This document shows positions 24,810 through 26,795 of a stretch of DNA of 64,000 bases, one piece after another. The stretch is taken from assembly GCF_001522865.1 (NCBI RefSeq), contig NZ_LOWB01000024.1, positions 62,001 to 126,000 on the forward strand. The letters are read 5' to 3'. The notes under the pieces are model-generated. The model saw nothing but the letters and a program-made list of their open reading frames with translations, had not been told where the DNA came from and did no database searches. This stretch comes from Burkholderia sp. TSV86 (GTDB lineage: Bacteria > Pseudomonadota > Gammaproteobacteria > Burkholderiales > Burkholderiaceae). Made by a program: the position numbers and the translations under genes. Numbering within the stretch: position 1 is the first letter of the stretch; every line of letters starts with the position of its first letter.

Positions 24810-24837
24810 TTGACAGCCGCCGTGAACTTCGCATAGA
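24810..24837 (+). promoter_or_regulatory. Predicted leuA promoter
   Basis: A perfect -35 TTGACA (24810-24815), 16-base spacer and CATAGA (24832-24837) as -10. The expected transcription start near 24844-24847 lies at or just before the ATG of the leader ORF, so that ORF would be nearly leaderless. Prediction from sequence only. Confidence 0.55.
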
Positions 24838-24846
24838 GTTGTCGCC

Positions 24847-24921
24847 ATGCGTTCCTATCAGAACACCCTCCGAATTACTTCCGGCCGCCTAGCGCGGCCG
24901 CTATCGCTACGACTAGCGTAA
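24847..24921 (+). CDS. Putative leucine leader peptide upstream of leuA
   Basis: A 24-residue ORF, 233 bases before leuA and directly under a TTGACA promoter. Five of 24 residues are Leu, and four of these use the CTA codon, which is very rare in this genome; the last ten codons contain CTA four times. The CTA codons create overlapping complementary segments: TAGCG at 24890-24894, CGCTA at 24899 and at 24905, TAGCG at 24914-24918, so alternative hairpins can form depending on ribosome stalling. A GC hairpin (24932-24937 with 24946-24951) and a T6 run (24991-24996) follow. This fits attenuation by leucyl-tRNA level; function is inferred. Confidence 0.7.
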   Translation: MRSYQNTLRITSGRLARPLSLRLA

Positions 24922-25154
24922 AGCTGTCGTGGCGCCGTGCCGCACCGGCGCGGTCCCGCCTTAGCAGTTCCCGCAGTTTCCTTCTCGCTGTTTTTTACAA
25001 CCCATAGTCGTCAGCCTTCGTCCGTCGATCCGCCGGGCGAAACGCGAAGATTCCCGCGTGCGTCGTGCAATCCGGCATGAGCGTGCGCAGGCGGCGCCTA
25101 CCGGCGCGTCATGCCGTCACTGTCTTCGCTCGCGACTCGACACTCGAGGTCACG

Positions 25155-26795
25155 ATGCAACGCAATCCCGCCGACAAATACCGACCGTTCGAACCCGTGC
25201 GCATCAACGCACGCCGATGGCCGAGCCGCACGATCGAGCGCGCGCCGGTCTGGATGAGCACCGATCTGCGCGACGGCAATCAGGCACTCATCGAGCCGAT
25301 GAGCATCGACAAGAAGCTCGAGTTTTTCGAGAGGCTCGTCGCGATCGGCTTCAAGGAAATCGAAGTCGGGTTTCCGTCGGCTTCGCAGACCGACTTCGAT
25401 TTCGTGCGCAAGCTGATCGTCGAAAACCGCATTCCCGACGACGTGACGATCGAAGTGCTCGTGCAATCGCGCGAGGATCTGATCGCGCGCACGTTCGATG
25501 CGCTCGAAGGCGCGCCGCGCGCGATCGTCCATCTGTACAACGCAATCTGCCCGTCGTTTCGCCGGATCGTATTCGGCGCGTCGAAGGAAGAAGTGAAGGC
25601 GCTTGCCGTCGACGGCACCCGGCTCATCAAGGAGCACGCGCGGGCGCGCCCCGGCACGCATTGGACCTTTCAATACTCGCCCGAGACGTTCAGCATGACC
25701 GAGCTGTCGTTCGCGCGCGAGGTGTGCGACGCGGTTGCGCAAACATGGCGGCCCACGCGCGAGCGCAAGATGATCGTGAACCTGCCCGCGACCGTCGAAG
25801 CAGCCACACCGAACGTGTTCGCCGACCAGATCGAGTGGATGGACCGCCATCTCAGCTACCGGGACAGCATCGTGCTGTCCGTGCATCCGCACAACGATCG
25901 CGGTACCGCCGTGGCCGCGGCCGAACTCGCGCTGCTCGCGGGCGCGGAGCGCATCGAAGGCTGCCTGTTCGGCAACGGCGAACGCACCGGCAACGTCGAT
26001 CTCGTCACGCTCGCGCTGAACCTGTACACGCAGGGCATCGATCCGGGCCTCGATTTCTCCGATATCGACGCAGTACGGCACACCGTCGAGCGCTGCAACC
26101 AGATTCCCGTGCATCCGCGCCATCCTTACGCGGGCGATCTCGTTTTCACCGCATTCTCAGGCTCGCATCAGGATGCGATCCGCAAGGGCTTCGCACAGCA
26201 GCAGCCCGACGCGCGCTGGGAGGTACCCTATCTGCCGATCGATCCCGCCGATCTCGGCCGCAGCTATGACGCGGTGATTCGCGTGAACAGCCAATCAGGC
26301 AAGGGCGGCGCGACCTATCTGCTCGAGCGCGGGATGGGGTTCACGCCGCCGCGCCGCGTGCAAATCGAATTCAGCCACGCCGTGCAGGCCTCGGCCGACG
26401 CTTCGGGCGAGGAAGTGACCGCGGACGCGATCTGCACGCTGTTTGCCAGCGAATATCTGCAAACGACCGGGCCGGCCGCGCGGGCAGGCGCATCGGCGAG
26501 CTGGCTCGATCGCGAGATCACGCTTGCCCCCGCCGGTGACGCGCAAAGCGCGGTGCGGCAGTCGGCCGCCGCATTCGCCGCGGCGGCAGGCGTGGCAATC
26601 GAGGTGATGTCGTGCGAGGTCGAGCGCACCGCGCAAGGCGACATCGCGGTGTTCGTCAGCGCGAAGGTCGGCGGCGCGACGCTGCGGCATGGCGTGGGCG
26701 TGCACCGCGATCCGGCCGCCGCGGGCACGGATGCGGTTGTGAGCGCGATCAACCGCTCGGCATGGAGCCATGACAAGCGGCGGGCGGCTGCCTGA
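25155..26795 (+). CDS. leuA: 2-isopropylmalate synthase, long (type II) form
   Basis: Condenses acetyl-CoA with 2-oxoisovalerate, committing carbon to leucine. The catalytic TIM barrel starts with [11 protein letters not shown] (metal and substrate residues) and includes [14 protein letters not shown]; a C-terminal LeuA allosteric domain follows (about residues 420-546), the usual site of leucine feedback. The ATG at 25155 follows CGAGGT; the frame is open to 25065. 546 residues places it with the long KYRPF-type LeuA rather than the E. coli form. Isolated from leuCDB; controlled by the leader ORF upstream, by inference. Confidence 0.93.

Follow-up and report, generated by a model that had tools for sequence, protein, structure and literature searches.

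Leucine-responsive control of leuA in Burkholderia sp. TSV86 is probably exerted by a cis-acting leader peptide region upstream of the gene, with Rho-dependent termination as the likeliest output. The region was analysed in a window of 64,000 nucleotides, i.e., the whole stretch of DNA under study. It contains a short ORF rich in the rare Leu codon CTA, and its sequence and setting allow the ORF to be read with good confidence as a leucine leader. The features are listed in Table 1.

Table 1. Features of the leuA leader region (positions in the window)
Feature	Position	Strand	Description
Promoter	24810..24839	+	-35 TTGACA 24810-24815, 18-nt spacer, -10 TAGAGT 24834-24839
Leader ORF, apparently leaderless	24847..24921	+	MRSYQNTLRITSGRLARPLSLRLA, then stop; CTA at codons 15, 19, 21, 23
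Hairpin P1	24882..24900	+	24882-24888 with 24894-24900; loop contains the first CTA
Helix P3	24905..24934	+	CGCTACGAC 24905-24913 with GTCGTGGCG 24926-24934, past the stop
Hairpin P4	24935..24953	+	24935-24941 with 24947-24953; directly 3' of P3
C-rich, G-poor stretch, candidate Rho loading (rut) region	24954..25023	+	C minus G 0.214
Possible hairpin P5	25017..25041	+	UUCGUCCG with CGGGCGAA; sequence conserved only
leuA, 2-isopropylmalate synthase, TIGR00970 / PRK03739 type	25155..26795	+	Presumed regulated gene

The leader lies inside a gap of 394 bp between a YbiB-type gene (23780-24760) and leuA. The first-pass annotation had reported a TTGACA promoter followed by a Leu-rich ORF, and all positions were as claimed; the ORF runs from the ATG at 24847 to the stop TAA at 24919-24921 and has 24 codons plus the stop. 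Leu is encoded by five of the 24 codons, i.e., one CTC and four CTA, and leuA follows downstream. CTA was said to be rare in this GC-rich genome, and it accounts for 3 of the 210 Leu codons in eight window genes. When both strands of the 64 kb were searched for ATG-started ORFs of 12-50 codons with at least three CTA codons, the leader ORF was the only one found. The leader ORF is not due to chance. The leuA product was recognized by profile match (NF002991, E 6.1e-246; TIGR00970, above cut-off) and is 98% identical to LeuA of B. singularis LMG 28154.

Close relatives were compared at the best 80 of 499 leuA loci, which belong to Burkholderia, Paraburkholderia, Caballeronia, and Trinickia. With the window added, they give 81 leaders with 53 distinct ORF sequences. 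Comparison of the CTA-rich ORF across related leuA upstream regions had been proposed as a check, and the ORF was found before leuA at all 80 close loci. Its C-terminal end, R-L-A-x-(x)-L-S-L-R-L-A or nearly so, also recurs in 80 of 80. The last three CTA codons are CTA in all 81 leaders, and the first is CTA in 79 and CTG in two. In P1 and P3, no pair involves the third base of the first, second, or fourth CTA (codons 19 and 23 among them). Third bases of other codons vary across the 81 leaders; the codon between the last two CTA is CGA, CGT, or CGC in 80 and AGT in one, and the last codon, GCG, is replaced by GCC in 33. Because CTA is invariant where its third base is unpaired, while other third bases vary, the comparison suggests that the CTA codon itself, and not the RNA alone, is under selection.

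Two other observations were made in these leaders. Codons 8-10 (24868-24876), CTC CGA ATT, are near-invariant across the groups, third bases and the uncommon CGA included, and they are located outside P1 and P3. A second ORF with the start MHVA, MHAA, or similar, often after GCGAGGGTC, was read by eye in 50 of the 81 leaders. It was placed at -190 before leuA in one locus (L005) and was seen also at Paraburkholderia and Caballeronia loci. In the 22 leaders of the 23-codon Paraburkholderia group it ends with HVA and a stop across the leuA start. By eye, it was not seen in 27 Burkholderia or four Trinickia-group leaders.

The window promoter matches the consensus at 10 of 12 positions, and one promoter-like site was found against 0.1 expected. 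The leader ATG lies seven bases past the -10 box. TTGACN and TANNNT are present in all 81 leaders (the best 80 of 499 loci and the window), with a spacer of 18 in 80 and of 17 in one. In the same 81, the gap from the -10 box to the ATG is 6 in 46, 7 in 34, and 9 in one. From this spacing, a leaderless start at the leader ATG is predicted; the ORF would be read as a leaderless mRNA, and the leaderless start looks conserved. The suggestion that the ORF may be leaderless is thus probably right, judging by the gap of 6-7 nt in 80 of 81 leaders. The pattern TTGAC-N18/19-TANNNT-N6/7-ATG had three matches in the 5.8 Mb genome, including this locus, and the controls had none. The pattern CTANNNCTANNNCTA had 11 matches in the same genome versus 111 and 67 when read backwards. 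The leuA leader locus was the sole place common to both lists.

Helices P1, P3, and P4 were obtained by consensus folding by group and are present in the main groups. In two alignments, of 32 and 12 sequences, 94.2% and 97.2% of the P1 cells were paired, the outermost pair being broken in 11 of the 32 sequences; for P3 the values were 96.5% and 97.2%. The 5' arm of P3 lies within codons 20-23 and overlaps CTA codons 21 and 23, and the helix spans the stop codon. The pair formed by the third base of codon 22 occurs as UG, AU, UA, and CG. For P1 and P3 together, 95.5% of cells were paired in the 32 sequences, the covariation score was reached by none of 500 shuffles, and 17 cells were changed on both sides versus 7.8 in shuffles. 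The 23-codon Paraburkholderia type, aligned apart (12 sequences), gave 97.2% paired cells and again 0 of 500 shuffles. The score was also above all slid registers. Pairs changed on both sides numbered three in the 32 sequences (reached by 38 of 500 shuffles) and one in the 12 (435 of 500), and further pair types numbered 10 (124 of 500) and four (298 of 500). The sequences are closely related, with much of the helix invariant, and the shuffles ignore relatedness. By the covariation score P1 and P3 co-vary, though two of the change-counting controls are unremarkable. In P4, 150 of the 168 cells of the first six pairs were paired among 28 distinct arm pairs, versus a mean of 142.3 and a maximum of 147 in 1000 shuffles, a count biased in favour of P4 as the 3' arm was picked by pairing where several candidates existed. 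The P4 arms co-vary at the second pair, from CG to TA. P5 was rejected as a switching hairpin, its covariation being no better than that of shuffles (331 of 500 reach it).

The complementary segments named in the first-pass annotation are exactly where it put them, i.e., TAGCG at 24890 and 24914 and CGCTA at 24899 and 24905. However, the pairings drawn between them are not those that are conserved. The first TAGCG differs from species to species, and the last CTA region has its conserved partner beyond the stop codon. The idea that stalled and moving ribosomes expose different hairpins holds to the extent that CTA codons lie within a helix that a ribosome can cover, i.e., P3, and not for the TAGCG and CGCTA pairs.

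A longer-range partner of the CTA region competes with P3. In the free fold of the window, the CTA region pairs by preference with UAGUCGU near 25005 and not with its P3 partner; the computed probability of P3 is 0.15. The corresponding CTA-GUCGUC pairing (near 25006) was compared in 79 of the 81 leaders, the two others (L060 and L074) being without a motif match. Among possible downstream partners it ranks first or close to first in most of the Burkholderia (28) and Trinickia (4) groups, whereas it is intermediate in Caballeronia (15) and not favoured in the two Paraburkholderia groups (11 and 21). It was dropped as a general switch and kept as a group-specific rival of P3. GTCGTC (25007-25012) is invariant in 38 of 38 sequences of one alignment, and no helix was found that explains it in all groups.

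To model the position of the ribosome, a footprint was assumed that extends 14 nt upstream and 16 nt downstream from the first base of the P-site codon. In this model, by construction from the assumed footprint, an arm of P3 is covered by stalls at CTA codons 19, 21, and 23 and by a ribosome at the stop codon (63 of the 81 leaders, and the window). A stall at the first CTA, which lies in the P1 loop, leaves P3 uncovered, and such a stall has no obvious consequence. Because the stalls at the late CTA codons cover an arm of P3 and the stall at the first does not, the model makes P3 the element that the late codons can control. The same stalls cover the 5' partner both of P3 and of the rival UAGUCGU pairing.

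The following mechanism is proposed. Transcription would start on the A of the leader ATG or no more than two bases from it, and ribosomes would encounter four rare CTA codons in a leaderless ORF. With ample charged tRNA-Leu, they would reach the stop codon and leave, and P3 would form beside P4. With scarce leucine, stalling at CTA codon 19, 21, or 23 would prevent P3, as the overlap in sequence suggests, and leuA would be ON in the state that lacks P3. Reading through the leader would lead to premature termination of transcription by Rho, within the C-rich stretch that lies between P4 and leuA, which is the weakest step of the proposal.

In more distant relatives, the exact core CTATCGCTACGNCTAGC was found in 16 of 60 family genomes, once in each. 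In 15 of the 16, this genome included, the core precedes leuA by 230-360 nt. The sole match away from leuA (genome G017) is on another contig, antisense in an ORF of 420 aa, and looks accidental; the core was not retained as a stand-alone element. A wider set of 39 loci was assembled from 20 leuA upstream regions of the family and 19 of the wider order. The family loci were 20 chosen from 22 matches in 25 genomes, mostly without the exact core. A leader was called for an ATG-started ORF of 12-50 codons with at least four Leu codons and at least 17% Leu, preceded by a promoter with at least 8 of 12 matches that ends 4-9 nt before the ATG. By this rule, a leader was found at 20 of the 39 loci; the reverse strands of the 39 gave 0, and Markov shuffles gave 0.06 per 39. 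Ten of the 20 family loci carry one, all with 3-7 CTA codons, and 10 of the 19 loci of the wider order, six of these without CTA. The other 19 of the 39 were not called, some through a differing promoter or start. In other genera the peptides diverge beyond recognition; Leu richness, the promoter-ATG layout, and the place before leuA recur. Elsewhere in the class, three of 18 leuA loci gave a leader, of which one (L137) looks convincing. Because 20 of 39 loci in the family and order have a leader versus 3 of 18 elsewhere in the class, leaderless-looking leucine leaders before leuA seem to be mainly a trait of one order in the sample examined. We take this order to be Burkholderiales. The original description, of a leucine-type leader that precedes leuA and makes use of rare CTA codons, is supported by conservation at close and distant loci.

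As for the output, Rho-dependent termination is the best of several candidates, with a likelihood somewhat short of one half. It is favoured because a C-rich, G-poor stretch follows P4. The C minus G value of this stretch is reached by 0.9% of 70-nt window positions, a somewhat flattering comparison as it sets a leader maximum against single positions. Across the 81 leaders (best 80 of 499 loci and the window), the largest C minus G over 70 nt downstream of the stop never falls below 0.185, and the median start of this maximum is 108 nt from the ATG. A simple opening or hiding of this stretch by the ribosome was considered and rejected. The group means of its unpaired fraction were 0.57-0.66 free versus 0.52-0.64 with a ribosome stalled at the last three Leu codons, and in the window the fraction was 0.55 free versus 0.61-0.64 stalled; the effect is small, and its sign is opposite in the window, where stalling opens the stretch slightly and does not hide it. 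The reserve of the first-pass annotation, which had kept Rho-dependent or translational control of leuA in view, was justified.

No intrinsic terminator was found by scanning the window leader, nor in the 28-sequence Burkholderia group with stems of at least 6 and loops of 3-9; this group includes the window and one Paraburkholderia (L058), assigned to it on length. A GC hairpin and a T6 run (24991-24996) had been proposed to follow the leader. Both are present, but the T6 run starts 38 nt after the hairpin, so they do not form a terminator. Weak terminator matches occur in 22 of the 81 leaders (best 80 of 499 and the window), 135-161 nt before leuA, and are confined to two Paraburkholderia groups. 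The 39 wider loci gave nine matches versus 7.2 in shuffles, so these are mostly chance, and two of them (L116 and L118) look real. In a small-genome relative (L103), about 229 nt before leuA, a Leu-rich leader is followed by AACCTCGGC...GCCGAGGTTTTTT, which looks terminator-like by eye and has a loop longer than the 3-9 nt scanned. From this sequence, the output device may have changed during evolution.

Control may instead be translational, with leader stalling that frees the ribosome-binding site of leuA, as proposed for the actinobacterial LEU element, and termination would then be unneeded. This is rather unlikely. It agrees with the failure to find a conserved intrinsic terminator, with the second ORF seen by eye before leuA in 50 of the 81 leaders and across its start in 22, and with Streptomyces LeuL1, which according to the consulted part of the source is leaderless and lies before leuA without a typical terminator (PMC8079986). 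However, the actinobacterial solution, in which the Leu codons pair with the leuA SD, was not favoured in the 81 leaders (best 80 of 499 and the window), where a median of 42% of other 16-nt stretches pair better with the SD than the Leu-codon run does. In addition, no helix over the leuA SD common to the groups was seen in the consensus folds, and in the window the leuA start is 233 nt beyond the leader stop.

Classic attenuation, in which P4 or another GC hairpin with a U run is an intrinsic terminator and an antiterminator forms between the P1 3' arm and the P4 5' arm, is quite improbable. The two arms (GCGCGGC and GCCGTGC) do pair in at least 98% of cells in the Burkholderia and Caballeronia groups, and the terminators of the three distant relatives named above, one of them judged by eye, look real before leuA. 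However, P4 is followed by UCCC and no U run, the scans of the window and the Burkholderia group were empty (loops above 9 nt being outside the scan), and the matches among the 81 leaders are weak and belong to two Paraburkholderia groups alone. Judging by position, a stall at CTA would either cover the 3' arm of P1 or leave P4 unobstructed. The pairing was therefore rejected as a 2:3 antiterminator, because it would not be set by the CTA codons. It is hardly to be expected that the conservation is that of a small trans-acting RNA or functional peptide with leuA control as a secondary matter; conservation is high in the hairpins and in the C-terminal half of the peptide, and a trans role is described for the leaderless leader peptide peTrpL of Sinorhizobium meliloti in the part of the source consulted (PMC7298713), but the exact core keeps its place before leuA in 15 of 16 family genomes with an accidental-looking match as the exception, and in other genera the peptide becomes unrecognisable as Leu richness, layout, and position recur. 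Rho-dependent termination is retained as the likeliest output.

Enterobacterial leuL is a short ORF with rare CTA Leu codons before leu genes, and the position of the ribosome sets its hairpins. The Burkholderia leader shares the short ORF, the rare CTA Leu codons, and hairpins that depend on ribosome position. It differs from leuL by its apparent leaderless start, by CTA codons that are spaced rather than consecutive, by the failure of the scans to detect an intrinsic terminator, and by a leuA of the TIGR00970 type. The corresponding Rfam family, Leu_leader (presumably RF00512), is not among the matches listed. Rfam 15 gave seven matches up to E 5 in the window at 23800-25900, all below the gathering score and none a leu leader, the best bit score being that of sX15 at 25007-25100. 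At 20 related loci there were two matches up to E 0.1, also below the gathering score and none a leu leader, i.e., psRNA2 at L111:95-147 (E 3.5e-5, upstream of the leader there) and a microRNA model. The leader is similar to classic leader-peptide attenuation and is without an Rfam match at gathering score or a published description among the papers found.

The nearest systems were found in other lineages, and each is described here from part of its source. Leaderless leaders, and leu leaders lacking a terminator, have been published for Streptomyces and other Actinobacteria, where the system is the LEU element (PMC8079986, PMC1262725). LeuL1 of Streptomyces lividans is alike as a leaderless leader peptide before leuA without a typical terminator (PMC8079986), whereas the LEU element relies on a pseudoknot between the Leu-codon run and the leuA SD box, which is not favoured in Burkholderia, and the peptides differ. 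LeuL of Campylobacter jejuni precedes leuABCD and has five rare Leu codons near its C-terminus, but its RNA ends shortly behind the stop codon, the lineage is another, and LeuL relatives there were predicted by ribosome-binding site (PMC3847290). The trpL leader transcript of S. meliloti likewise begins with the ATG of the leader ORF, but it concerns tryptophan and has a transcription terminator (PMC7298713). In E. coli, stalling on the toiL uORF (topAI-yjhQ) is proposed to refold the RNA and relieve Rho-dependent termination; here antibiotics and not an amino acid are sensed, and Rho acts within the gene after blocked translation (PMC12121999). A start-site paper on B. cenocepacia covers leaderless genes, and a term search of its main text gave no leader peptide, attenuation, uORF, or leucine (PMC4603805). 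In the part consulted of a survey of premature terminators, Burkholderia is named once, for an IS element (PMC2965389). No description of the leuA leader was found in the portions of the open-access literature consulted, and an earlier prediction in older attenuation papers is possible. Attenuation in proteobacteria was reportedly treated by Vitreschak in 2004 and Lopatovskaya in 2010.

If true, the proposed mechanism would explain the control of leuA in Burkholderia, Paraburkholderia, and perhaps much of their order. Leaderless initiation, codon-specific stalling, and termination would be coupled in one natural, strongly conserved case, and the leader would let leaderless initiation be studied through a regulatory output. 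The leader ORF is a small gene of a kind easily missed by gene finders. A broader proposal is put forward tentatively, as one less likely than not to hold. Burkholderiales would share order-wide leaderless (5'-AUG) leucine sensors, whose output in Burkholderia and relatives would run through a stop-codon-spanning helix and Rho and not an intrinsic terminator, and several genera would have two different CTA-rich leaders in series before one leuA.

A second element was observed 72-134 nt upstream of leuA at 12 loci of other genera (L084-L089, L091, L095, L099, L100, L104, and L111). Its ORF has 2-4 CTA codons in 10 of the 12 loci and LPIG in eight, and runs into the motif GGUUGCCxG. By eye, this motif can pair with a downstream CxGGCAACC-like sequence and is often crossed by GUGGC...GCCAC, i.e., a putative pseudoknot or switch. 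The motif is present at 14 of the 39 wider loci, or 12 when L090 and L092, where it lies on the -35 box, are set aside. It was found in none of the 81 Burkholderia-type leaders (best 80 of 499 and the window). At L084-L086, L099, L100, L104, and L111 the second element stands in tandem with a distal leaderless-looking leader.
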